Positions 833 to 55,567 of a DNA stretch of 64,000 nt are shown here, piece by piece; position 1 is the stretch's first letter, and every line of letters begins with the position of its first letter. Position numbers and translations under genes: made by a program. Source of the DNA: an uncultured Dongia sp. (GTDB lineage Bacteria > Pseudomonadota > Alphaproteobacteria > Dongiales > Dongiaceae); NCBI RefSeq assembly GCF_936916975.1, contig NZ_CAKZGO010000022.1, forward strand, positions 124,001-188,000. The letters run 5' to 3'. The notes under the pieces were generated by a model, which saw nothing but the letters and a program-made list of their open reading frames with translations, did no database searches and was not told the origin of the DNA.

Positions 833-2674
833 ATGACAAAGCCCCATGATCTTGCAGCCTTCGATCCGTTCCTGGGTCAGCTGCTGAATCTCCCCACGAT
901 CTATTCCGCCGGCCTGTCGCCGGACGGAACACAGCTTGCCTGGATCTGGGCGAAGCTCGGCCCGACGACACAGCTATGGCTGCAGCCGTCCGATGGCAGC
1001 GCGCCGCCACGTTGCCTCATCGATGACGGGCGCGATTGCGACTATCTCATCTGGGGGCGGGACAGCCGTTCCATCATCGTCGGCCAATCTTCCGGTGGCG
1101 ACGAACGCACCAGCCTGCTGCAGGTCTTCCTCGATGGCCAGCCACCGCGCCGGCTGACGCCGGAAGAACCCGATTACTACATCCATGGCGGCCAGTTGCT
1201 GGCCGATAACAGGCATCTGATTTATGCCGCCAATGTCGATCCCGATAGCGGTGCGGAGATCGAGCCGGCGTTGATCTACGTGCATGACATCGAGACCGAT
1301 ACGAAGCGCGTGATCGCGCGGCCGGCGAAGGCTGCCTTCATGTGGCCGCTGGTGTCGCCCGACGATACCCACGTACTCTATGAACGCAAGGACCTCGATC
1401 CTGCAGGTTGTCAGCTCTGGCTGGCGGCGGTCGATGGCAGTTTCGACCGCGAGATCGTCAATGTCGGCGACAATGCCAAGGTCGACGGCGCCTGGTCGCC
1501 GGACGGGCAGCACATCGTGCTCGCCGCCGAAGGCAAGCCACACCGCCGCATCGGCCTCTATCATCTGAAAGATGGCAAAATCGACTGGCTGGTCGACGAT
1601 CCAGCCCGCAATGTCGAGGACGCTGTGTGGCTGCGCCGCACTTCCCATGTCGTCATCGAGGAAGTGCGCGCCGCCCGTACCCATATGTCCTTGCTCGACC
1701 CGGCGACGCGTCTCGAAACGCCGTTCAATCCAGGCGGCGGCACCTATGATCCGATTGGCCGCACGGCGGGCGGCGATTGGGTCACCTGGCATTACGACGC
1801 GCAAACGCCGGCACGCCTCTTACGTCTGGACAAGACGTATCGAGTAGAAGGCGCGTTGGCGGAGCATCCCACGCGTTCCACCATCCCTGCCGCGAACCTT
1901 GTCCCGGCCACGGATTATCGCTGGACGTCGGTCGACGGGATTGAGATCCAGGGCTGGCTCTATCGCGCCAAGCAAACGGTGCTCGGCACCATCCTGCTGG
2001 TCCATGGCGGCCCCACCCATCACGATGAAGACGAATTCGATCCGGAAATCCAGTATTACGTCGCCTGCGGCTTCAACGTGCTGACGCCGAACTATCGCGG
2101 CTCGACCGGTTTCAGCCTCGCCTTCGAGGAATCGATCAAGGTGGAGGGCTGGGGTGGGTTGGAGCAGGAGGATATCCGCACCGGCGCCGAGGCTCTCATC
2201 CGCGACGGCATCGCGGCGAAGGGGCAGGTCGGCATCACCGGCACCTCCTATGGCGGCTATTCATCCTGGTGGGCGATCACCCATTTCCCTGTCGAAACGA
2301 TCGCGGCCGCTGCGCCGATCTGCGGTATGACGGATCTTGTGGTGGATTACGAGACGACGCGGCCTGATCTCCGGCCTTATTCCGAGGAGATGATGGGTGG
2401 CGCACCCACGCAGGTGCCGGGGCGCTACCGCGAACGTTCACCCATTCACTTCGTCGGCGATATCAAGGGCCGGCTGCTGATCGTCCAGGGCGATAACGAC
2501 CCCAATGTGACGCCGCAGAATGTCACTGACGTGATCACGCGGCTGAAGGCGGCGAACATTGCCTTCGAACTGCTGACCTTCGCCGATGAAGGCCATGGCA
2601 TCGGCCGGCCGGAGAACCAGCGGGTGCTCTATCGCCGCATCGCGGAGTTCTTCGGCCAAGCTTTCGGCACGTAG
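833..2674 (+). CDS. S9 family serine peptidase (prolyl oligopeptidase / acylaminoacyl peptidase type)
   Basis: A 613-residue protein with an N-terminal beta-propeller (WSPDGQHIVLA-type blades, roughly residues 30-340) and a C-terminal alpha/beta hydrolase domain. The nucleophile is Ser472 in GTSYGGY; Asp556 in GDNDPNV and His588 in DEGHGIG complete the triad in the expected order. HGGPTHHDEDEFDPEIQYY is the oxyanion-hole region. No signal peptide is visible, so it is probably cytoplasmic, cleaving short peptides. It converges on the PKHD hydroxylase with only 4 bp between the stop codons and no obvious terminator. Confidence 0.9.
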   Translation: MTKPHDLAAFDPFLGQLLNLPTIYSAGLSPDGTQLAWIWAKLGPTTQLWLQPSDGSAPPRCLIDDGRDCDYLIWGRDSRSIIVGQSSGGDERTSLLQVFLDGQPPRRLTPEEPDYYIHGGQLLADNRHLIYAANVDPDSGAEIEPALIYVHDIETDTKRVIARPAKAAFMWPLVSPDDTHVLYERKDLDPAGCQLWLAAVDGSFDREIVNVGDNAKVDGAWSPDGQHIVLAAEGKPHRRIGLYHLKDGKIDWLVDDPARNVEDAVWLRRTSHVVIEEVRAARTHMSLLDPATRLETPFNPGGGTYDPIGRTAGGDWVTWHYDAQTPARLLRLDKTYRVEGALAEHPTRSTIPAANLVPATDYRWTSVDGIEIQGWLYRAKQTVLGTILLVHGGPTHHDEDEFDPEIQYYVACGFNVLTPNYRGSTGFSLAFEESIKVEGWGGLEQEDIRTGAEALIRDGIAAKGQVGITGTSYGGYSSWWAITHFPVETIAAAAPICGMTDLVVDYETTRPDLRPYSEEMMGGAPTQVPGRYRERSPIHFVGDIKGRLLIVQGDNDPNVTPQNVTDVITRLKAANIAFELLTFADEGHGIGRPENQRVLYRRIAEFFGQAFGT

Positions 2675-2678
2675 CGGA

Positions 2679-3353
2679 TCAAGTCTCTGCCCACATGCGC
2701 AGCAGATTGGTGTGCAGGCGAAAGGCCGTATCCGTCTCCGGCGCCTTTGGGTCGAGCGCATGCAATCTGTCGCGAATTTGCGCCGCATCCGACAGGAACT
2801 GCCGCTGCCGCTCATCGCGGACATAGGATTGTACCCAGGTGACCGCCACCAGCCGCTCACCCCTAGTCACCTCGGCCACTTCGTGCAAGGTGCCGGAGGG
2901 ATAGATGACGGCATAGCGTTCCGGCAGTTTCACTTCCTGAATGCCGAAGGGCGAATGGATCACCAACTCCCCGCCGTCATATTCGGTGGCATCGTTGATG
3001 AACACGGTGACAGACACATCGGTGCGGTCGCGGTTGTTGGCCGGGCCCATCAAGGCATCGTCCACATGGGTGCCATAGGTCATGCCGGGACGGTAACGGC
3101 TGATCAGCGGCGGGCGGATGCGGTGCGGAATGGCACCACGGCGGAATTCCTTCGACCGATTGAGGGCAGCCACCACGATCTCCTGCAATTGCCGCTTGTT
3201 GGTGGCGTCCTTGGCAACCTGCTCGTTGTTCTTCACCAGCTTCGCGCGGAAGCCGGCGGTTTCCTTACCGTCGACAAAGGTCGATTGTGCTGCCAGAAGC
3301 TTCAGTTGCGACTGCTCGTCCTTGGAGAGGACATCGGGGATGATCACGATCAT
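2679..3353 (-). CDS. PKHD-type Fe(II)/2-oxoglutarate hydroxylase (PiuC/YbiX family)
   Basis: 224 residues, the usual length for this family. The double-stranded beta-helix iron site is complete: His96 and Asp98 in THVDD, and His157 in SGTLHEV, with an Arg-containing RGERLVAV strand following that fits the 2-oxoglutarate carboxylate. The N-terminal IIPDVLSKDE and RYRPGMTYGTHVDDA segments are typical of PiuC/YbiX. Relatives are often linked to TonB-dependent siderophore receptors, but no such receptor is present here. It lies 24 bp downstream of sufS on the same strand, so the two may be co-transcribed and share an iron-related role. The protein substrate of this family is not established. Confidence 0.88.
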   Translation of the reverse strand: MIVIIPDVLSKDEQSQLKLLAAQSTFVDGKETAGFRAKLVKNNEQVAKDATNKRQLQEIVVAALNRSKEFRRGAIPHRIRPPLISRYRPGMTYGTHVDDALMGPANNRDRTDVSVTVFINDATEYDGGELVIHSPFGIQEVKLPERYAVIYPSGTLHEVAEVTRGERLVAVTWVQSYVRDERQRQFLSDAAQIRDRLHALDPKAPETDTAFRLHTNLLRMWAET

Positions 3354-3377
3354 GCGGCTGTTCCCATTTCGGCGTTG

Positions 3378-4619
3378 CTAGCGCAGCATCTGCCGTACCC
3401 GTGCCAAGCTGTCAACCAGCCGGTCGACATCAGGGCGGGTATTGTGGACGCCGAACGAGATCCGGGCGGTCCCGGTGATCCCCAGATGCTCCATCAACGG
3501 CTGCGCGCAATGGTGCCCGGCCCGCAGGCATACCCCGCTTTCGCCCAGCAGCGTCCCGATATCATGGGGGTGCAGCCCGTCCAGGGTGAAGGAAATGATG
3601 CCGATATGCTCTGTGGGCGCGCCGATGATCTTGAGCCCCGCAATCTCCGGCAGCCGCTCGGCGGCATAGTTGAAGAGGGCGGCATCATGGGCGGCAATGG
3701 CCTCGAACCCGATGTCCTCTATGAAATCGAGCGCTGTGCTGAGGCCGAGGGCGGCACCGATGGCCGGCGTCCCGGCTTCGAACCGGCGTGGCCCGTCGGC
3801 GAATTCGGTGTGATCGAGGCTCACTGACCGGATCATGCCGCCGCCACCCATGAAGGGGGGCAAATCGGCCAGGATACCGGCTTTGACATAAAGCGCGCCG
3901 ATCCCGTCCGGGCCATAAAGTTTGTGCCCGGTAATGGTGAGGAAATCGCAATCCAGTGCCTTCACGTCGAGTGCGAAATGGGGCGCCGCCTGGGCCGCAT
4001 CCACCATCACCAGCGCGCCGGCGCGATGTGCCATTGCAATGATGGTCTTGAGCGGCGTCACCGTGCCGATGGTGTTGGCGGCGGCGGTGATGCAGACGAT
4101 CTTGGGCTCCCGCGACAGCAGCATTTCATAACGCGCGAGATCGAGATCGCCCTTGGCATCGATGGGAATGCCGGCAAGGCGCAGGCGCTTGCGCTCCTTC
4201 AGCAACTGCCAGGGCACGATATTGGCGTGGTGCTCCAGCAGCGAGGTGAGGATGAGATCGCCCGGCCGCAGATTATGATCGCCATAGGCATGGGCGACCA
4301 GATTGATGCCCTCGGTGGCATTGTGCGTGAAGATGATTTCGTCCTTGTCCGCGCCGAGGAACCGTGCCACCCGCGCCCGGGATTGGTCGTAGGCCTCGCT
4401 CGCCCCCTCGCTCAATTGATAGAGGCCGCGATGGATGTTGGCGTATTCGCTCTCATAGAACCGGGTCAGCCGGTCGATCACCACCGCCGGCTTCTGTGCA
4501 CTTGCAGCACTGTCGAGATAAACCAGCTCCGGGTTGTTTTTGAGCAGCGGAAACTGCGCGCGCGGCACCAGGGCCTCGTCGCCGGGCGTAGCTTTGAGAA
4601 TGGGCAGCGGGCTCGACAT
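3378..4619 (-). CDS. sufS: Cysteine desulfurase SufS
   Basis: 413 residues. It removes sulfur from L-cysteine as a persulfide for Fe-S assembly. The PLP lysine is Lys233 in TGHKLYGPDG, and the persulfide-forming cysteine is Cys371 in RAGHHCAQP, the signature that separates SufS/CsdA (group II) from IscS. The N-terminal NIHRGLYQLSE and THNATEGIN segments are also characteristic. No sufBCDE genes are adjacent, so this is a solitary copy as far as the window shows. A CsdA-like or selenocysteine-lyase role cannot be excluded. Confidence 0.9.
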   Translation of the reverse strand: MSSPLPILKATPGDEALVPRAQFPLLKNNPELVYLDSAASAQKPAVVIDRLTRFYESEYANIHRGLYQLSEGASEAYDQSRARVARFLGADKDEIIFTHNATEGINLVAHAYGDHNLRPGDLILTSLLEHHANIVPWQLLKERKRLRLAGIPIDAKGDLDLARYEMLLSREPKIVCITAAANTIGTVTPLKTIIAMAHRAGALVMVDAAQAAPHFALDVKALDCDFLTITGHKLYGPDGIGALYVKAGILADLPPFMGGGGMIRSVSLDHTEFADGPRRFEAGTPAIGAALGLSTALDFIEDIGFEAIAAHDAALFNYAAERLPEIAGLKIIGAPTEHIGIISFTLDGLHPHDIGTLLGESGVCLRAGHHCAQPLMEHLGITGTARISFGVHNTRPDVDRLVDSLARVRQMLR

Positions 4620-4650
4620 CGTTCAGATCAGCGCCTTATTTCGCAGAAAA

Positions 4651-4748
4651 GCCGTCATGCCCGGACCCAGCCTTGAATCAAGACTGGCCGGGCATCCACT
4701 CTATCAGCTGCGATTGTGGATCCCCGGGTCAAGTCCGGGGATGACGGC
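4651..4748. repeat. Palindromic intergenic repeat, REP-like
   Basis: The outer arms GCCGTCATGCCCGGAC (4651-4666) and GTCCGGGGATGACGGC (4733-4748) are reverse complements at 15 of 16 positions. Inside is a smaller arm containing a CCCCGGGTCAAG segment. Sequences of the type GTCATCCCCGGACTTGACCC are dispersed repeats in many alphaproteobacterial genomes. It sits between the divergent sufS and transporter operon. Confidence 0.7.
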
Positions 4749-4806
4749 AATTTATTTTTGTACCATCGGTCAGGAATTTGGCGGCCCGCATCACCCACAG
4801 GTGATA

Positions 4807-4836
4807 CAAAGATTGTTTGCATGCAAACGATCTTTG
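4807..4836. promoter_or_regulatory. 30-bp near-perfect palindrome, candidate operator of the transporter operon
   Basis: The 30 bp centred between 4821 and 4822 are self-complementary at 28 of 30 positions, with a perfect core GTTTGCATGCAAAC. A CATAAT -10-like hexamer follows at 4849-4854, placing a likely transcription start near 4861 and the palindrome over the -35 region, where a repressor would act. The cognate regulator is not in the window; the dyad is in the style of GntR- or LacI-family sites, but that is inference. Confidence 0.75.
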
Positions 4837-4912
4837 CTTGAACGGGACCATAATCCATGTTTTGCTCGACACTGATGGCACCGCTCCGTGTGCCACTGGA
4901 GGAGGGCAGAAA

Positions 4913-6028
4913 ATGACTGGGAAGACGCGGGACGGTAAGGGCAGCTTCGGCAGGGTGTCGCGGCGCCAATTTGTGGCCGGTGCTTCGGCATTGGGCGTTG
5001 CGGCGGGGCTTACCCCGTTCGGCAGCCGGCAAGCGATGGCTGCCGGTGAAGTGAAGGTGTTGAACTGGCAAGGCTACGGCACGGACGAGAAATGGGCGCT
5101 TGAAGCGTTCAAGAAGGCGACCGGCCTCGACGTGGTCCATGAATATTACAACTCCGAATCGGAGATGATCACCAAGCTGCAGACCAATCCCGGCGCCTAT
5201 GACGTCATCGTCACCAATTCCGCCTGGAATGATCGTGCGTCGGAACTGGGCGTCATCCAGCCGATCGACACGGCGCAGATCAGCCATTTCGGCGACCTCA
5301 ACCCCGCGTTTCGTGATTCGGACCTGCTCGGCGCCGATGGCAAGGTCTACGGTGTTTCCTGGGTCTGGGGCATCACGGCCGTTGCCTATTCGACCGAGGT
5401 GTTCAAGGAAACGCCGAAATCGCTCGAAGCTCTGTGGGACGCGAAGAACGCCAAGCGCGTCTCGTTCCGCGACGATGCGATCGAGGCGGTAAGCTTCGCG
5501 GCTATCGCCACCGGCCAGGACATGAACCACCCCAAGGACCTCGCCAAGGTGAAGGAAAAGCTTCTCGCCTTGAAGCCGAACCTCGCCATGCTGTGGTCGT
5601 CGGAAGATGATTGGAACAAACAATTCCAGGCCAAGGCGTTCGACATTTCGATCTATTGGAGCGGCTCGGCGCTGCGCAGCAAGAACAACTTCAAGCTGCC
5701 GGTCGGCTTTGTCGTGCCGGATGAGGGCGCCGTAGGCTGGTTCGACGGCCTTGCCATCGGCAAGGACGCGCCCAATGCCGAGGGTGCCCACAAGTTTATC
5801 GATTACATGATCGATCCGACCTTCTACGTCGAATGGGCCACCAAGGTTGGTGCGCCGGCTTCCGCCAACAATGCGGCGATGGGAGCCTTGCCGGAGAGCG
5901 ACGACAAGACCCTCTATTCGGACCAGGCTGCCATCAAGCGGCTGCAGTTCATGGCCCCGCTCACCGATGAAGAGCGCCAGGCCTATTCGGATCTCTGGGC
6001 TGAAGTGAAGACCGAGTTCGCCAAGTAA
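4913..6028 (+). CDS. TAT-exported substrate-binding protein of a spermidine/putrescine-type ABC transporter
   Basis: 371 residues from the ATG at 4913, which follows GGAGGAGGG with good spacing; an upstream in-frame start at 4817 would precede the likely transcription start and lacks such a site. The N-terminus has a twin-arginine signal, SRRQFVAG at residues 16-23, a hydrophobic stretch and an AMAA cleavage region near 41-44. The mature protein begins VKVLNWQGYGTDEK, as in PotD/PotF-like solute-binding proteins. It should deliver ligand to the two downstream permeases. The real ligand is uncertain: neighbouring glycosidase and ribokinase genes hint at a glycosylated compound rather than a simple polyamine. 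Confidence 0.88.
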   Translation: MTGKTRDGKGSFGRVSRRQFVAGASALGVAAGLTPFGSRQAMAAGEVKVLNWQGYGTDEKWALEAFKKATGLDVVHEYYNSESEMITKLQTNPGAYDVIVTNSAWNDRASELGVIQPIDTAQISHFGDLNPAFRDSDLLGADGKVYGVSWVWGITAVAYSTEVFKETPKSLEALWDAKNAKRVSFRDDAIEAVSFAAIATGQDMNHPKDLAKVKEKLLALKPNLAMLWSSEDDWNKQFQAKAFDISIYWSGSALRSKNNFKLPVGFVVPDEGAVGWFDGLAIGKDAPNAEGAHKFIDYMIDPTFYVEWATKVGAPASANNAAMGALPESDDKTLYSDQAAIKRLQFMAPLTDEERQAYSDLWAEVKTEFAK

Positions 6029-6050
6029 ACGCGGCTCGCGCATGAACGAG

Positions 6051-6084
6051 GGGCGCCGCGCCAGATTGAAATGGCGCGGCGTCC
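6051..6084 (+). other. Intercistronic hairpin after the binding-protein gene
   Basis: CGCCGCGCCA (6054-6063) pairs perfectly with TGGCGCGGCG (6072-6081) around an 8-nt loop; three further pairs, one G-U, extend the stem to 13 bp. No T-run follows, so it is not a classical terminator. A hairpin between the binding-protein gene and the permease genes is a known way to stabilise the upstream mRNA and keep binding protein in excess. Confidence 0.6.
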
Positions 6085-6102
6085 ACGTTCGAAGGATTCT
6101 GC

Positions 6103-6966
6103 ATGACACCGACGACGCGCACGCGCTGGGCCATTCTCGGCCTGACAGGACCGGCATATCTCTGGCTGGCCTGCACGATCTTCCTGCCGATCGCCGCGAT
6201 GCTGGCGCTGAGCTTTCTCGATAAATCGCCACTTGTCCCCAAGCCAGCGAGCTTCACCCTTGCCAATTACGGCGCCTTCTTCGGCAAGCCGTTCTATTGG
6301 TCGCTGACGCGCTGGTCTATCGAACTCGGCTTCTGGGTCACCCTGTTCTCGTTCCTGATCGGCTATCCCGCCGCCTATGCGCTGGCCAAGCGCGTCAAGG
6401 GCCGCTGGCGCGAAGCGATCTTCCTGCTCATCGTGCTGCCGTTCTGGTCGAATGCGCTGGTGCGCATCTTCTCCTGGACCATGGTGCTGCGCCCGAACGG
6501 CATCATCGATCTCGGCGTGCAATCGGTCTTGCCCGGCGCACCCACGGTCGATCTGCTGTTCACCTATCCCGCCGTCATCATCGGCCTGGTGCACTCTTAT
6601 CTCCCTTACATGATCCTCACCTGCTACATCGCGCTGCAGGCGATCGATGACAGCCTGATCGAAGCCGGCCGGTCTTTGGGGGCCAACAAACTCACCACCT
6701 TCCGCCGCGTGGTGTTGCCGCTCAGCCTGCCCGGCATCATCTCAGGGTCAGCCCTCATCTTCGTGCCCGTGATCGGCTCCTTCATGGAGCCGCGTATTCT
6801 GGGCGGCACCAAGGGGGCGACACTCGGCATGAATATCGAGGAGCAATTCACCGTGACGGCAAACTGGCCGCTGGGCGCCGCACTTTCCTTCATCCTGCTG
6901 GCGATCGTGCTCGTCATCTTCGGCATGCTCTATCCCTTCTTGCGCAAACAGAGCGGTGCCGCATGA
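6103..6966 (+). CDS. ABC transporter permease, PotB-like
   Basis: 287 residues with about six hydrophobic helices. The EAA loop that docks the ATPase is EAGRSLGANKLTTFRRVVLPLSLPGI (near residue 188), typical of the PotB/PotH branch. An AAGGAT ribosome-binding site stands six bases before the ATG. It forms the translocation channel with the next permease, whose start overlaps this stop by 4 bp (ATGA), so the two are translationally coupled. Confidence 0.92.
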   Translation: MTPTTRTRWAILGLTGPAYLWLACTIFLPIAAMLALSFLDKSPLVPKPASFTLANYGAFFGKPFYWSLTRWSIELGFWVTLFSFLIGYPAAYALAKRVKGRWREAIFLLIVLPFWSNALVRIFSWTMVLRPNGIIDLGVQSVLPGAPTVDLLFTYPAVIIGLVHSYLPYMILTCYIALQAIDDSLIEAGRSLGANKLTTFRRVVLPLSLPGIISGSALIFVPVIGSFMEPRILGGTKGATLGMNIEEQFTVTANWPLGAALSFILLAIVLVIFGMLYPFLRKQSGAA

Positions 6967-7778
6967 AGAACTTTGCCGATGCGGGCATCCGCTTCTATCT
7001 CATCCTGGTGCTGGTCTTTCTCTATCTGCCGATCCTGGTGATGGCGCTCCTTGCCTTCAATAAATCGCCGCTCTATGCGCTGCCGTTCGAATTCGACCTG
7101 GTGTGGTTCAAGGCGCTGGCGGAAAACGACCGGCTGCTGAAAGCCGGGCTCAACAGCGTGCTTATCGCGCTTGCCAATACGGTGATCGCGACGTCGCTGG
7201 GCACCATGGCCGCCGTGGCCTTCGGCCGCTACACCTTCCGCGGCAAGACCATGATGCAGGCGCTGCTCTTCCCGCCCATCGCCATTCCATGGCTGGTGAT
7301 CGGCACGGCGATGCTGGTGTTCTTCTTCTGGATCGGGCGTGCGATCGGCTATCCCGGCATCGCCCGGGGCCTGCACGCGATCCTGCTGGGGCACGTCGCC
7401 CTGTCGCTGCCCTATGTGATCTTCGTTGTCGGAGCCAGGCTCAACGACTATCCAAAGGCGCTTGAGGAAGCTGCGGCAACCTTGGGGGCGACGCCCTGGC
7501 AGGTGTTCCGCCGCATCTCTGTGCCCATTCTGGCACCCGGCGTGGTCGCGGCATCCTTGTTCGCCTTCGCGGTCTCGTTCGATCAATTCGTAATTTCGTA
7601 TTTCCTGGCCCCACCCGGCGTCACCACCTTGCCGGTCGAGATTTATACCTCGATCCGCAAGGGCTTCACGCCGGAAATCAATGCCATCTCGACCATCATC
7701 ATTCTGGTGTCGATGGGCTTGATGCTGATCGTGGCCAGGTTCTATCGCTTCGGTGGGGAGAGGTCGGGTAATGAGTGA
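6963..7778 (+). CDS. ABC transporter permease, PotC-like
   Basis: 271 residues, six predicted membrane helices. The EAA motif EEAAATLGATPWQVFRRISVPILAPGV lies near residue 165, and the C-terminal FDQFVISYFLAPPGVTTLPVEIYTSIRKG segment is characteristic of PotC/PotI. Start and stop overlap both neighbours (4 bp upstream, 8 bp downstream), showing a tightly coupled operon. Confidence 0.92.
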   Translation: MKNFADAGIRFYLILVLVFLYLPILVMALLAFNKSPLYALPFEFDLVWFKALAENDRLLKAGLNSVLIALANTVIATSLGTMAAVAFGRYTFRGKTMMQALLFPPIAIPWLVIGTAMLVFFFWIGRAIGYPGIARGLHAILLGHVALSLPYVIFVVGARLNDYPKALEEAAATLGATPWQVFRRISVPILAPGVVAASLFAFAVSFDQFVISYFLAPPGVTTLPVEIYTSIRKGFTPEINAISTIIILVSMGLMLIVARFYRFGGERSGNE

Positions 7779-8844
7779 AGTTGCCGTCAAGGGCGCCGTC
7801 AAACGATACGGGCCCATCGCCGCCTTGGATGGCGTCGATCTGACCTTCGCCGATGGCGAATTCTTCGGGCTGTTGGGACCATCCGGTTCCGGCAAGACGA
7901 CCCTGCTGCGCGCCATCGCCGGCTTCATCGAATTGGATGCGGGCGAGATCCGCATCGACGGCACCGACATCTCGCGGATCCCCGTGCATCAGCGCAATAT
8001 CGGCATGGTGTTCCAGAACTACGCCCTGTTTCCGCATATGAATGTAGCCGAGAACATCGCCTTCGGCCTCGACGTCCGCAATGTGCCGGCTGCCGAGATC
8101 AAGCAGCGTGTCGGCGAAAGCCTCGATCTGGTGCGCCTCGCCGGTCTCGAGCAGCGCCGGCCCAAACAATTGTCCGGTGGCCAGCAACAGCGTGTCGCGC
8201 TCGCGCGTGCGCTGGTGACGCGACCGCAGGTGCTGCTGCTGGACGAGCCGCTGAGTGCGCTCGACAAGCATCTCCGCCAAGAAATGCAGGTGGAACTCCG
8301 CCGCATCCAGCGCCAGATCGGCATCACCACCATCTTCGTGACACATGACCAGGAAGAGGCGCTGACCCTCTCCGACCGCGTCGCCATCTTCAACAAGGGC
8401 CAGGTCGTTCAGGCCGGCAGTCCGCGCGTCGTCTATGAACGCCCCGTCGACCGTTTCGCGGCAGGCTTCCTGGGCGAAGCGAACTTCCTCGATGGCCGGG
8501 TGAGCGGCATCGCCGGCGGTGTTGCCCGTGTGGCACTCAGCACCGGCGGCGAAGTGCTGACACCGGCCAATGAGCTTGGCGTCAACGATGCTGTCCTCAT
8601 CGCCTTGCGGCCGGAAAAAATCAGCATCGACCCCGCGCCGGCAGGTGTTGCCGCCATGCCCAACCGGATTCTGGGCACGGTCAGTGCGGCGATCTTCTCC
8701 GGCTCCAGCCTCACCTATCGCATCGCCGTGGGTGACCGCATCTTCATCGTGTTCGAACAGAACAAAAGCCGGGCACCTTTGCCTGAACACAGCACGGTCA
8801 TGTTGGAATGGCCGACTGCCGACAACGTCGTGGTGAAATCTTGA
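7771..8844 (+). CDS. ABC transporter ATP-binding protein, PotA-like
   Basis: 357 residues from the ATG at 7771; a longer in-frame start at 7753 would extend further into the permease gene. Walker A GPSGSGKTT is at residues 37-45, the Q-loop in MVFQNYALFPHM, the signature LSGGQQQRVALARAL, Walker B VLLLDEPLSALD, and the switch His in FVTHDQEEA. A TOBE-type domain follows after about residue 240 (RPEKISIDP). It energises the two PotB/C-like permeases. Confidence 0.93.
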   Translation: MSEVAVKGAVKRYGPIAALDGVDLTFADGEFFGLLGPSGSGKTTLLRAIAGFIELDAGEIRIDGTDISRIPVHQRNIGMVFQNYALFPHMNVAENIAFGLDVRNVPAAEIKQRVGESLDLVRLAGLEQRRPKQLSGGQQQRVALARALVTRPQVLLLDEPLSALDKHLRQEMQVELRRIQRQIGITTIFVTHDQEEALTLSDRVAIFNKGQVVQAGSPRVVYERPVDRFAAGFLGEANFLDGRVSGIAGGVARVALSTGGEVLTPANELGVNDAVLIALRPEKISIDPAPAGVAAMPNRILGTVSAAIFSGSSLTYRIAVGDRIFIVFEQNKSRAPLPEHSTVMLEWPTADNVVVKS

Positions 8845-51338: not shown

Positions 51339-51771
51339 AAATGTATCGTTTCAACAGGCTGCGGTAGTCCGGCTGGCGGCAACCATTTTTACCGTGCGCC
51401 GACCTCGGCGTGTGTGCCTGCACAATCGGTGACTGATTCGCCGGCATAATCGTTCATGCCGCTGGGCCACGGTCGCGGATGCGGCAGGCTTGCCTTAACA
51501 GGCGAACAATCTTTACGGGTTTTCTGGTCTGACAGGCGTTGCGAAAGAGCGTAGCTTTCTCGTTGCGCGCCCAATGGGTCGGGCGTGTTATCGATCCCAG
51601 CGTGTACCAACATTTCGGCACCAGCTTTGCGCCCCAGCTTTATGCGATGGGGTGCGACGCGGGGCGTTTTTCGCGCATCCAGAGGACGTGCTGGGTTTGA
51701 GCGGGGCCAAGATTTCAGAATGAAGACATGAGGGAGTGACTCTGACGTCAGCTATTTGAGGAGACATGGTC
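51339..51771. other. Gene-free interval upstream of the DUF2589 cassette
   Basis: These 433 bases contain only short overlapping frames without ribosome-binding sites. They should hold the cassette promoter, but I could not single out a convincing -35/-10 pair. Confidence 0.5.
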
Positions 51772-52440
51772 ATGCCTAATCCGGGACAGGAATTATCGAG
51801 TATAGATTTTGCCTCCATGCTCGGTGGACCGCTGCGGGCGGTCATCAATGCGCAAGCCCAGGCCGCGATCTCCACGGTCAATTTCATCAAGGAGGTCGGC
51901 TTCAAGAAGCCGGCGGCCGAAGAAGTCGCGGGCGGCGATACCTCGACGCAGGAACCGATCTACGTCAAATTCAAATATCCCAAGGAACTGAGCCCGTTCC
52001 AGCCGGCCATTCCGGCCGATGCCGGTGACCCGGCCGCGGTGCCGCCACGGGCCGCTCGTCCAGCGGTGGCCGCGGTACCGGCGGTCTTCGAGACGCAGCA
52101 GCTGGAAGTGCCGATTCTTACCATGCTGCCGATCCCGTTCATCCGCATCGACCTCACCACCATCGACTTCAATGCCAAGATCAATTCGGTCGAGTACCAG
52201 AAGACCGATACCAATCTGAAGATCGATGCCGCCCTGGAGGCCAAGGCTGGCTGGCTGTGGGGCTCGGCCAAGCTCAATGTTTCGACGTCGTTCCAGCGCA
52301 CGACGCAGCAAGGCAACACGGTCGACCGGACCTATTCCATGGCTGTCCATATCAAGGCGGTGCAGGACGAAATGCCCGCTGGCATGGAACGGATTCTTGG
52401 CATCCTGGAGGGTGCCATCACCTCGAAGCCTGCGGCATAG
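51772..52440 (+). CDS. DUF2589 family protein
   Basis: 222 residues from MPNPGQELSSIDFASMLGGPLRAVINAQAQAAISTVNFI; GAGGAG is eight bases before this ATG and only two before the alternative at 51766. Family features are the N-terminal amphipathic helix and the beta-rich block VPILTMLPIPFIRIDLTTIDFNAKI, followed by GSAKLNVSTSFQRTTQQGNTVDRTYSMAVHIKAVQDEMPAGMERILGILEGAI. A Pro/Ala-rich linker (about residues 68-107) separates the two. No signal peptide is present. The function of DUF2589 is unknown to me. It starts a four-gene cassette. Confidence 0.85.
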   Translation: MPNPGQELSSIDFASMLGGPLRAVINAQAQAAISTVNFIKEVGFKKPAAEEVAGGDTSTQEPIYVKFKYPKELSPFQPAIPADAGDPAAVPPRAARPAVAAVPAVFETQQLEVPILTMLPIPFIRIDLTTIDFNAKINSVEYQKTDTNLKIDAALEAKAGWLWGSAKLNVSTSFQRTTQQGNTVDRTYSMAVHIKAVQDEMPAGMERILGILEGAITSKPAA

Positions 52441-52467
52441 GGGCCGATCACTAGAGGGTGACGCCGC

Positions 52468-53160
52468 ATGCCCTATCTCGGCGACTATCTCGGACAGATC
52501 CTGTCGGAGATTTCGATGGCACGCCTGCAGGCGGATCTGGAAACGGTCCGCCTGGCCGAGCTTTATGCGGCCCATCCCCTGCTGCGCACGATGCCGGTGC
52601 CGCATGTCCGATTGCCCGATGTCGATCTCGATATCCCTGTCCTCATCAAGGCGTCGGAAGAACCGCGCGATGCTGAATCGTCGCGCGGTGGGGCGACCTT
52701 GCCGGAGATATCCAAGAAGTTCGACGAAGTGTTCACCGCCCATCTGGTCAGATCCGGCGTCGCCTTGTCGGATGCCGATCAGAAGAAGCTGCGCGCGACG
52801 CTCGATGAGCGCCTCGCTTCGGGCCGCTTGCCGCGGGAGATCGCCGTCGATGTGCACCGGATGGCGGACGATCTTACCACTGCGGCGTTGCGTGTCGTCG
52901 ATGAGGCACGGCCCGCGGCAGAGCGCGAAAAGCCGATGGCACAGCCGGCCGCAGCGCTCAAGGAAGCAGTGCGGCTGGAACTGCTGAAACTGCGCACGGC
53001 CCCACCGCGGCTCAGCGTACTGGTGACCAGTTCGGAAATCCGCGAAGCCGCCTCTGCCGACAATGTGACGCGGCTGCGGCTCAAGGTCTCGGAGCACGGG
53101 GTCGAATGGACCTCGGTCGAGACCGATGGCGTGCAGCACGACCGTCTCGTGCCTGAGTGA
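52468..53160 (+). CDS. DUF2589-cassette protein 2, unknown function
   Basis: 230 residues. The N-terminus MPYLGDYLGQILSEISMARLQADLETVRLAELYAAHPLLRTMPVPHVRLPDVDLDIPVLI pairs a helix with a segment that echoes the DUF2589 core (PxPxxR followed by alternating hydrophobics). The middle is helical and charged; the C-terminus RLRLKVSEHGVEWTSVE is beta-like. It lacks signal peptide and membrane helices. It lies 27 bp after the DUF2589 gene and 6 bp before the next, so co-expression is likely. Confidence 0.7.
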   Translation: MPYLGDYLGQILSEISMARLQADLETVRLAELYAAHPLLRTMPVPHVRLPDVDLDIPVLIKASEEPRDAESSRGGATLPEISKKFDEVFTAHLVRSGVALSDADQKKLRATLDERLASGRLPREIAVDVHRMADDLTTAALRVVDEARPAAEREKPMAQPAAALKEAVRLELLKLRTAPPRLSVLVTSSEIREAASADNVTRLRLKVSEHGVEWTSVETDGVQHDRLVPE

Positions 53161-53166
53161 ACGGCG

Positions 53167-53769
53167 ATGCTGCGGCTCATGCATGCTGAGGGCATCGCCG
53201 ATCTGCTGCTGGAGCTGCCGGGTCTGATCGGGCAGCAGGAGCGGCGCTCGACCGATTTTGTGCGCAATGCCGTGGCCTGGCTGACGGCGCTTGAGGATCT
53301 GTTCACCGCGAGCCGCCTGCACCAGGCCGGCAGCATCGCCATCCTGCGCAGCGGGCTGCTTTCCGCCGAACATGGTCATGTGCCGGAGGGCTTGCAGTTT
53401 CGCGGGCGTCCGACGCGCACGCGCGTCCTCACGGCACTGGCGGCCCAGGCCCTGAAGCAAGCGGCAGATACGGCGTCAGAGTTGCTTTCCGAAAACCGGG
53501 CGCGTCTCGCCGAAGCGGAACGGGTGGCTCAGCAGATCGTGGCCGCCGGCCTGTCGCGCGGGGTGATCATGGGCCGTGGGGAAGAGGCCAGCAACACCGA
53601 GTTCCTGCGCGCGCTGCGTCGGGGCCTCAGCACCAGCGCCGATCTGGAGCCGGCGGCGGTCCATCTCGAAGGATTGGTCGGACCGTATGATGCGCTCATT
53701 TTGTTCGACCGGGCGCTGGCGCCGCATCTTGCCGTGCTGGCCGTCGCCATGACCGGGCAGATGCAATGA
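53167..53769 (+). CDS. DUF2589-cassette protein 3, unknown function
   Basis: 200 residues, almost wholly helical: NAVAWLTALEDLFTASRLHQAGSIAILRSGLL, ALAAQALKQAADTASELLSENRARLAEAERVAQQIVAAGLSRGVIMG. The C-terminal half contains LVGPYDALILFDRALAPHLAVLAVAM. I recognise no family. No membrane segment or signal. Its position between protein 2 and the M15-like protein, with gaps of 6 and 19 bp, ties it to the cassette. Confidence 0.65.
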   Translation: MLRLMHAEGIADLLLELPGLIGQQERRSTDFVRNAVAWLTALEDLFTASRLHQAGSIAILRSGLLSAEHGHVPEGLQFRGRPTRTRVLTALAAQALKQAADTASELLSENRARLAEAERVAQQIVAAGLSRGVIMGRGEEASNTEFLRALRRGLSTSADLEPAAVHLEGLVGPYDALILFDRALAPHLAVLAVAMTGQMQ

Positions 53770-53788
53770 GATCTGGAAGGAGCAAGCC

Positions 53789-54352
53789 ATGGCGACATCC
53801 AATTTGAGCGGCAAGGATTGGTGGCGGGCCAATCAGCGGAATTATCCCAACAGCCAGGATATCGACGATCTCGAATCCGGCTTTCGCGCGCGGGTGCAGG
53901 ATTTCATTGGGTCGCTGCGCCATGCCGGTGCCAGCGTCACAATCGCCAGCACGCGCCGCAATGCCACCCGCGCGCATCTCATGCATTATTGCTGGAAGGT
54001 TGCCCATGGCGACATCGCCGCCGCCGACGTGCCGGCAATGAGTGGCCTCACCATCGACTGGGATCATGGCGATGCGGAGAAATCCAAGCAAGGGGCGCAG
54101 GAGATGGTCAATCTGTTCGGCATGGCGCACATCGCCTCGCTCAGCTCCAACCATATCAGCGGCAAAGCCATCGACATGAACATCTCGTGGAAAGAGACGC
54201 TGGTTCTGACACAGCCGGCGCCCCTGCTTACGCGTATCGAGAGCCGGCCGCGCAGCGGGCAGAATCGTGAGCTTCACGGGATTGGCGGTGACGTTTTCCG
54301 GGTCTTCAAATTGTGTTCCGACCCGCCGCATTGGTCCTTCAACGGCCGTTAG
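53789..54352 (+). CDS. VanY/M15-like zinc peptidase homologue, cytoplasmic
   Basis: 187 residues after GGAAGGAG. The pattern SxHxxGxAxD of M15 D,D-peptidases is present as SNHISGKAID: His122 and Asp129 should bind zinc. The third ligand would be His181 in DPPHWSFNGR; the residue three positions earlier, where M15 enzymes have the catalytic Glu, is Asp178. There is no signal peptide, so it would need a lysis or injection route to reach peptidoglycan, as phage endolysins do. It may instead cleave another peptide or be inactive. Confidence 0.7.
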   Translation: MATSNLSGKDWWRANQRNYPNSQDIDDLESGFRARVQDFIGSLRHAGASVTIASTRRNATRAHLMHYCWKVAHGDIAAADVPAMSGLTIDWDHGDAEKSKQGAQEMVNLFGMAHIASLSSNHISGKAIDMNISWKETLVLTQPAPLLTRIESRPRSGQNRELHGIGGDVFRVFKLCSDPPHWSFNGR

Positions 54353-54601: not shown

Positions 54602-55567
54602 ATGGGGATCGTCGAACGGCGCTCGCAGATCGAGGTTTCGGTCATCAAAGAGATGGGCGCCATGATGCAAGCGATGGCCATCCGCTCGGCGGTGTTCATC
54701 GGTGAATTCGGCTGCGGCCATGACGAAGAATTCGACGGCAACGATTTCAGCGCCACGCATATCATTGCGCGCGTCGGCGGTGAACCGGCCGGCACCATGC
54801 GCCTGCGCTATTTCGCCGACTTCGTCATTCCCGAACGCCTCGCTGTCCTGCCTGCCTTCCGCAAGGGCCGCTATGGCGACCGCGGTGTGGCTTACGCGCT
54901 GGCCACCTTCGGCTTCAACCTCTCGCGCATGAAAGGCTACAAGCGCTTCGTCGGCTATTCGGTGCTGGGCCTCGAACAATTCTGGGACCGCGTCGCATTG
55001 GCGAGTGGCGGCCGCGTCGACCGCTTCGGCGATGCGCCCATCGAATGCTCAGGCTCGACCTGCATCGGCGTGTTCGGGTCATTGGACCCGATGCCGGGTG
55101 CCGTGGATTCCCGCGAACATCATCATATGCTCACCGCCTGCGAGGCCGAACTGCCGCACCATGTGCAGCAGCGGGCGCAGCTGATGCAGTCGGTGAGTCA
55201 TGAGGTGCCCATCGATGCATTGCCGGTCGACAGCCGGCGTGCCAGCGACCGCCGTGGCGCAGATAAACGTGGTGGCGACCGTCGGGCCACCGACCGTCGG
55301 GCCGATGAACGCCGCGCCACCGATCGCCGTGCGCTCGACCGCCGCGGCGACAATCGGCGGAGTGTGGAGAATCGCGGCTCGGATGTGGTCGGCCAGGATT
55401 TGCGCTTTGGCGACCGTCGCGCCGATGAACGCCGCTCAGACGAGCGCCGTGCCCAGGATCGCCGGGCAGGAGACCGCCGCGCCAGCGACCGCCGCCATCA
55501 CGAAGCAGCAGCCGCGCCAGAACAGCGCAACACGTTCCATCATTATGTTGAGGCCGCGGTCGCGTAA
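54602..55567 (+). CDS. GNAT-type acetyltransferase with C-terminal xxDRR repeat tail
   Basis: 321 residues. Residues 1-160 look like a GNAT domain: IRSAVFIGEFGCGHDEEFDGNDFSATHIIARVGGEPAGTMRLRYFADFVIPERLAVLPAFRKGRYGDRGVAYALATFGFNLSRMKGYKRFVGYS, with the RKGRYGDRGVAYAL segment at the acetyl-CoA site. Residues 211-298 (DNA 55232-55495) are about 14 tandem pentads of the form xxDRR or xxERR, in two blocks split by an 18-residue spacer. The tail is dense in both charges and probably disordered or a salt-bridged helix. The acyl acceptor is unknown. Confidence 0.75.
   Translation: MGIVERRSQIEVSVIKEMGAMMQAMAIRSAVFIGEFGCGHDEEFDGNDFSATHIIARVGGEPAGTMRLRYFADFVIPERLAVLPAFRKGRYGDRGVAYALATFGFNLSRMKGYKRFVGYSVLGLEQFWDRVALASGGRVDRFGDAPIECSGSTCIGVFGSLDPMPGAVDSREHHHMLTACEAELPHHVQQRAQLMQSVSHEVPIDALPVDSRRASDRRGADKRGGDRRATDRRADERRATDRRALDRRGDNRRSVENRGSDVVGQDLRFGDRRADERRSDERRAQDRRAGDRRASDRRHHEAAAAPEQRNTFHHYVEAAVA

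Follow-up and report, generated by a model that had tools for sequence, protein, structure and literature searches.

How might a cell wall hydrolase that carries no signal peptide be put to use where no holin is encoded beside it? The question is raised by four adjacent genes, here called A to D, in a 64,000-nucleotide stretch of DNA from an uncultured Dongia sp. (contig NZ_CAKZGO010000022.1, positions 124,001 to 188,000; the window). They encode a protein of the orphan family DUF2589, two companion proteins, and a predicted peptidase. Export of leaderless wall hydrolases from the cytoplasm is normally explained by a holin. The explanation that we favor, as a real possibility rather than a probability, is that the bacterium has retained these genes as a lysis or enzyme-release module of phage type and that DUF2589 proteins either take the place of the missing holin or control it.

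A conserved four-gene unit

All four open reading frames (ORFs) lie on the + strand, with gaps of 27, 6, and 19 bp between A and B, B and C, and C and D, as described in an earlier note made from the sequence alone. Gene A (51772 to 52440; 222 amino acids, or aa) matched the DUF2589 profile PF11655 with 84.3 bits against a cutoff of 23 (E value, 1.5e-23), bearing out the label that it had been given. Gene B (52468 to 53160; 230 aa) stayed under the cutoff for the same profile (13.7 bits; E value, 0.082), and gene C (53167 to 53769; 200 aa) matched no Pfam or NCBIfam family. Gene D (53789 to 54352; 187 aa) encodes the leaderless enzyme. Hydropathy analysis found no signal or transmembrane segment in A to D (maximum KD19 of 1.47, 0.76, 1.73, and 0.95, respectively). 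NCBIfam and PHROGs scans of the four proteins returned nothing over noise, the best match being phrog_21149 for C (0.0027).

The arrangement recurs. A scan of genome contigs with D yielded two relatives, one of which was locus L010, on a contig labelled Phycisphaerae bacterium HBSAPP03, a planctomycete metagenome-assembled genome whose taxonomic label could be wrong. L010 has the complete A-B-C-D order, with protein identities of 85, 49, 44, and 68%, respectively. All four genes are intact, and pN/pS between the window and L010 was below 1 for each of them (A, 0.17; B, 0.49; C, 0.63; D, 0.35). The A-B-C order was also found in L038 (genome G410) and L040 (G624), to which gene A is 76% and 46% identical. 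In L040, a different M15 endolysin (phrog_465, 1.3e-25) occupies the position of D after A-B-C. Relatives of B adjoin A, and relatives of C are present, in all three loci; another B relative adjoins A in L071 (G875; 34% over 53 aa). Because the A-B-C-D order is kept in L010 and A-B-C appears again in L038 and L040, the four genes form a real, tightly spaced, conserved unit that is more than a product of chance. The exact four-gene set is rare, but the architecture, DUF2589 with a leaderless hydrolase, is not.

DUF2589 itself has a rare and patchy distribution. It was present in 4 of 61 relatives (0 of 6 congeners and 0 of 10 confamilials); sampling of the class gave 5 positives among 385 genomes, that of the phylum 9 among 398, and that of the class to which G543 belongs 3 among 321. 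These samples overlap, all are Pseudomonadota, and the total comes to 13 DUF2589-positive genomes. Two PF11655 genes occur in 10 of the 13. The A-B-C genomes (G000, G410, and G624) have a single clear DUF2589 gene, with B in the second place. Comparison of the B family with the DUF2589 alignment by hhalign gave an E value of 4.6e-4 at a probability of 33, and PF11655 matched none of five B relatives (L010, L038, L040, L071, and L015). Judged by its sequence, B may at best be a diverged, faint DUF2589 relative. The two middle proteins had been called unrecognised, a description that fits the family-less C but fits B less well.

A C profile gave four matches in the phylum sample. Three were solid, all at A-B-C loci, and C accompanies DUF2589 in three of the nine DUF2589-positive genomes of that sample; the fourth, in a genome that is not DUF2589-positive (G745), was weak (3.8e-4 over 56 residues). 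D relatives occurred in five genomes of the same sample, and DUF2589 in just one of these, the window genome. Since the other four lack DUF2589, D is a mobile enzyme type that is not specific to this family, and the co-occurrence of partners that the earlier note had proposed to check is borne out for C but not for D. Such a scatter of D would be expected if the genes had been grouped by chance, or if unrelated genes had moved together. Synteny across phyla, the confinement of solid C matches to A-B-C loci, and the repeated adjacency of hydrolases described below argue against this explanation, which we regard as very improbable. Several leads for C were dropped: TssA (0.1), phrog_21149, the 56-residue G745 match, and SspC in PADLOC (4.8e-4, in one of four relatives).

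Gene spacing suggests that A to D are carried on a single transcript; promoter- and terminator-like sites around the cassette were no more numerous than in shuffled sequence. An AGGAG motif lies 8 bases upstream of the gene A start at 51772. A further in-frame ATG is found at 51766, and 51772 was preferred because it is suitably spaced from AGGAG and agrees with the start in L010. The cassette is not a compositional island (GC of 0.645, against 0.58 to 0.67 in the window). Conservation at the other cassette loci does not extend to the genes that flank the cassette in the window, and a lipoprotein-like gene 430 bp upstream has no counterpart in L010, L038, or L040. A 555-codon open frame on the - strand opposite A and B (51793 to 53460) is probably a shadow of high-GC coding sequence. 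Downstream, at 54602 to 55567 (+), lies a gene for a GNAT-like protein (Pfam, 0.0084, under the cutoff) that carries a series of arginine-rich D/E-R-R repeats at its C terminus.

Gene D, a leaderless enzyme with an M15/LAS-like fold

D had been described as a VanY- or M15-like peptidase without a signal peptide. No Pfam M15 profile matched D itself, and the VanY profile matched 1 of 14 family members (0.018). Sequence methods were weak here, and the assignment was decided by structure. The AlphaFold model of D is confident (pLDDT 92), and a Foldseek search of the PDB with this model returned M15/LAS enzymes in all of the top 16 rows, with resemblance to VanY, Ply500, and ChiX (best E value, 1.2e-3); after the PDB rows came models of viral proteins that bear the name peptidase M15B or endolysin. 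VIA with the D model gave Z scores of 8.1 for Ply500, 7.8 for LysB4, and about 6.5 for hedgehog domains, whose fold is related. All 14 aligned D relatives keep residues H122, D129, D178, and H181, with H-x6-D and D-x2-H spacing, and the family has additional conserved segments, RAHLMHY and I-x-W-x-H. The spacing of H122, D129, and H181 together with D178 is that of His68, Asp75, and His123 together with Asp120 in ChiX, where, in the part of the published account available to us, the first three are zinc ligands and Asp120 is catalytic; ChiX lacks a signal peptide and needs ChiW, a protein of the inner membrane, for its entry into the periplasm (PMC5778951). On its predicted structure, D is an M15/LAS-fold peptidase, and it is predicted to cleave peptidoglycan peptides. 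The leaderless M15-like character of D thus stands, without a Pfam match of its own. The earlier note saw no known process for any of the four genes. This is right for A, B, and C, but D can be assigned.

Viral contigs scanned with the single D protein gave no match, and 24 relatives were found with the D alignment. In the 13 of these 24 surroundings inspected by eye, D often has long tail-like genes on one side and, on the other, small ORFs that contain hydrophobic segments. A Calothrix relative is a fusion to a peptidoglycan-binding domain, with a match to the endolysin family phrog_2649 in its N-terminal part.

Two D relatives lie in another context, that of the type VI secretion system (T6SS). 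In a T6SS cluster of Rahnella (L018, 5028 to 8516), the C terminus of a 1,162-aa protein encoded two genes after VgrG is a D-type domain; this protein is a probable T6SS effector. In L097, a VgrG-like ORF directly precedes a D relative, and an Hcp-like ORF lies farther out (both judged by eye). D could then be an antibacterial effector meant for another cell, and A, B, and C could link it to a secretion machine, for instance the T6SS, as carrier, chaperone, or adaptor. Phospholipase-like genes next to two DUF2589 loci (patatin in L042 and, by eye, a DUF2235-like gene in L037) would also suit such a role. In the window, however, none of the four flanking genes scanned is a VgrG, Hcp, PAAR, or injection gene (the search for a T6SS did not extend to the rest of the genome), and the cassette encodes no signal-peptide protein as a candidate for periplasmic immunity. 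The upstream lipoprotein-like gene is not shared with the other three cassette loci, and phage contigs that encode portal and capsid proteins carry DUF2589 pairs as well. We consider an effector module unlikely. The suggestion of a phage-derived injection or lysis assembly fares accordingly: a link to lysis is likely, but no injection genes appeared among those flanking genes.

DUF2589 genes beside leaderless wall hydrolases

With DUF2589 baits only, 23 DUF2589 lineages were collected, comprising 13 genomes, 5 plasmid-collection records, one faecal scaffold, and 4 viral contig groups. L010 was excluded, D having been the bait, and L075 to L077 and L078 to L086 were merged as groups, of whose 12 members 7 were inspected. 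An endolysin-type peptidoglycan hydrolase was found at a distance of up to about 2.1 kb from DUF2589 in 13 of the 23 lineages and belonged to one of seven types: GH19 (L013 and L035), phage lysozyme (L022, L036, and L075), pesticin type (L039), GH108 (L041), M15 (D in the window, the endolysin in L040, and M15_4 in L042), PF11860 muramidase (L023 and L074), or amidase_3 (L037). In the 12 lineages outside the window, the hydrolase lies 0 to 2,042 bp from the DUF2589 genes, and none of the 12 enzymes has a signal-like N terminus (maximum KD12 of at most 1.24; an internal Met was chosen as the start of the L035 enzyme for this check).

Within the 13 DUF2589-positive genomes, two GH19 genes scored over the cutoff, and both lie 27 to 44 bp from DUF2589. 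The sole strong pesticin match adjoins DUF2589, and two weak matches were found at other places in G699; for amidase_3, 1 of 19 genes is beside DUF2589. In a tblastn control, 14 enzyme queries gave no endolysin-type match in 20 regions (297 kb) of 10 DUF2589-positive genomes. The regions were hand-picked, several on contigs from earlier results, and sensitivity was low, since an amidase_3 gene known in L104 was missed. When DUF2589 loci were searched with queries from other lineages, five matched (L023, L035, L036, L074, and L075). The rule that an endolysin lies beside DUF2589 also predicted genes that had at first been missed, in L035 and L036. Together, these results make the association between DUF2589 and leaderless hydrolases well supported, and what recurs beside DUF2589 is a kind of enzyme rather than D in particular.

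Some candidates were left uncounted. L021 and L073 each encode an SLT enzyme, but with a signal-like N terminus (tested for L021), and SLT also occurred in 2 of the 20 control regions. Proteins of 303 aa in L015, 329 aa in L071, and 195 aa in L079 (NlpC-like by eye) look like hydrolases by eye only and received no Pfam, PHROG, or NCBIfam call.

In five phage contigs (L078, L079, L080, L083, and L086), the DUF2589 pair adjoins a gene for a coiled-coil protein and lies a few genes before the portal gene and capsid; portal and capsid were confirmed in L078 by Pfam and PHROGs. The coiled-coil protein has a C-terminal hydrophobic segment (KD19 of 2.1 to 2.3 in the two tested) and could be holin-like, although no Pfam or PHROGs family match makes it a holin. 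This position would also fit DUF2589 proteins that serve as phage structural or DNA entry proteins, with D-type enzymes as virion-associated lysins and the window cassette as a relic. Such an origin seems quite unlikely to us. The four flanking window genes scanned include no phage structural gene, PHROGs has no model for either DUF2589 protein of L079, and four intact genes with pN/pS below 1 do not form a decaying relic.

In L042 (6572 to 7642), a patatin-like phospholipase gene lies between the M15_4 enzyme and DUF2589; its product scored 159.9 bits for CBASS_lipase, against a cutoff of 200. AbiEi and AbiEii genes are found near L073. Such neighbors, and the fact that bacterial genomes keep leaderless hydrolases beside cytoplasmic proteins, are compatible with restraint followed by altruistic death, in which A, B, and C would hold D inactive and release it on infection or stress, in the manner of a toxin-antitoxin or abortive infection system. 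Restraint by itself would account for little, because a wall hydrolase in the cytoplasm is harmless unless exported. None of the PADLOC models is convincing for A to D (the best being the SspC match of C), and phages, too, carry DUF2589 pairs. We rate this explanation as improbable.

Other genes accompany DUF2589. A family of 88- to 94-aa proteins (RIVVG...NPNN) is encoded in eight DUF2589 loci (L014, 9107 to 9370; L035, 9320 to 9583; L021, 6899 to 7171; L023, 6948 to 7208; L036, 7000 to 7248; L037, 7434 to 7709; L041, 8690 to 8968; L073, 6857 to 7132). The members scanned matched nothing in Pfam, PHROGs, or NCBIfam, and the family is missing from the A-B-C loci by tblastn. Mor-like regulator genes (by eye) adjoin DUF2589 loci in L013 (5656 to 6123) and L021 (7404 to 7823). 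Beside the DUF2589-GH19 locus of L035 lies a gene (1771 to 7041) for a 1,756-aa protein with a HEAWHVVQQ motif, by eye presumably DUF4157-like. In L075, the DUF2589 pair stands between two phage-lysozyme-like genes (1120 to 3664 and 7233 to 8498), and a phage integrase is encoded nearby. Pfam confirmed the integrase and the downstream lysozyme; the upstream lysozyme was identified by similarity.

How the cassette might work

If the cassette is a lysis or enzyme-release module, D would be a zinc peptidase that is made in the cytoplasm and, on reaching the periplasm, cleaves the peptides of peptidoglycan. A, with B and C, would play the role of a holin and retain D in the cytoplasm. On a signal, A, B, and C would pass D across the inner membrane, and the producing cell would lyse or cargo would be released. 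Elsewhere, the same DUF2589 core would work with other leaderless wall hydrolases, the enzyme being an interchangeable part. The action of A, B, and C on D, the membrane passage, and the lysis are what we infer from analogy with known systems.

Type 10 secretion systems act by lysis, as far as the accessible part of one account goes (PMC10847048). The cassette resembles type 10 secretion (ChiWXYZ of Serratia) and phage lysis cassettes in its leaderless M15/LAS endopeptidase with ChiX-like spacing and in its small operon. Those systems have a holin and spanins, whereas the window cassette has neither and has DUF2589, B, and C instead, none of which is among the parts of type 10 or lysis systems described in the sections available of two papers (PMC5778951 and PMC10847048). 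D is like VanY, Ply500, LysB4, and ChiX in predicted fold and in its four invariant residues, and it differs from M15/LAS peptidases in having no Pfam M15 match and in its two extra segments. A is a member of PF11655, and its family generally comes as two genes, but in A-B-C genomes B fills the second place. Although wall-degrading T6SS effectors share the D domain through the Rahnella cluster, the window cassette has no adjacent T6SS genes and no immunity candidate.

Several results weigh against the lysis or enzyme-release reading. None of A to D has a transmembrane segment (maximum KD19, 1.73) or matches a known holin family in Pfam or PHROGs, and no protein of the cassette has the signal or lipobox of a spanin. 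The helix and hairpin of A are of modest amphipathicity and give no direct sign of membrane action. A tblastn search found no D relative in 50,697 named phage records, and no PHROG covers the family. Sequence profiles of D found no PDB entry, its comparison with two M15 endolysins by hhalign failed (probability, 2.4), and no Foldseek match in the PDB fell under an E value of 0.001, with TM scores of only about 0.4. No hydrolase was recognised next to A-B-C in L038, one of the four A-B-C loci. Finally, 10 of the 23 lineages have no recognisable hydrolase (L012, L014, L015, L020, L021, L038, L071, L072, L073, and L078 to L086), four of them with limits of their own: L015 and L072 are short contigs, L014 is incomplete, and L020 lies at the end of its record.

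Structure prediction served D better than A. The AlphaFold model of A, built from 10 sequences, has a pLDDT of 52 and a pTM of 0.30, too poor to test the delivery step. Its topology of a helix (residues 13 to 43), six strands, and a C-terminal helix is a hint only; the idea of a beta pore has modest support at most, and the "structural-looking beta proteins" of the earlier note find no backing in such a model.

In the accessible parts of the open-access literature (excluding subscription papers and preprints), DUF2589 appeared only as up-regulated genes of Archaeoglobus; PF11655, "DUF2589 domain-containing," and DUF2589 together with endolysin and holin went unmentioned. A broader proposal, which would place DUF2589 proteins at the center of an undescribed but widespread system without holins, appears doubtful to us; in it, interchangeable leaderless wall hydrolases would be moved or unleashed, and the system would be shared by phages, plasmids, and bacterial chromosomes of distant phyla. 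The locus hints at an undescribed way of using phage-type wall-cutting enzymes. A recurring partnership between such enzymes and soluble DUF2589 proteins would give this orphan family its first testable role and perhaps reveal how lysis or the release of proteins can proceed without a holin.

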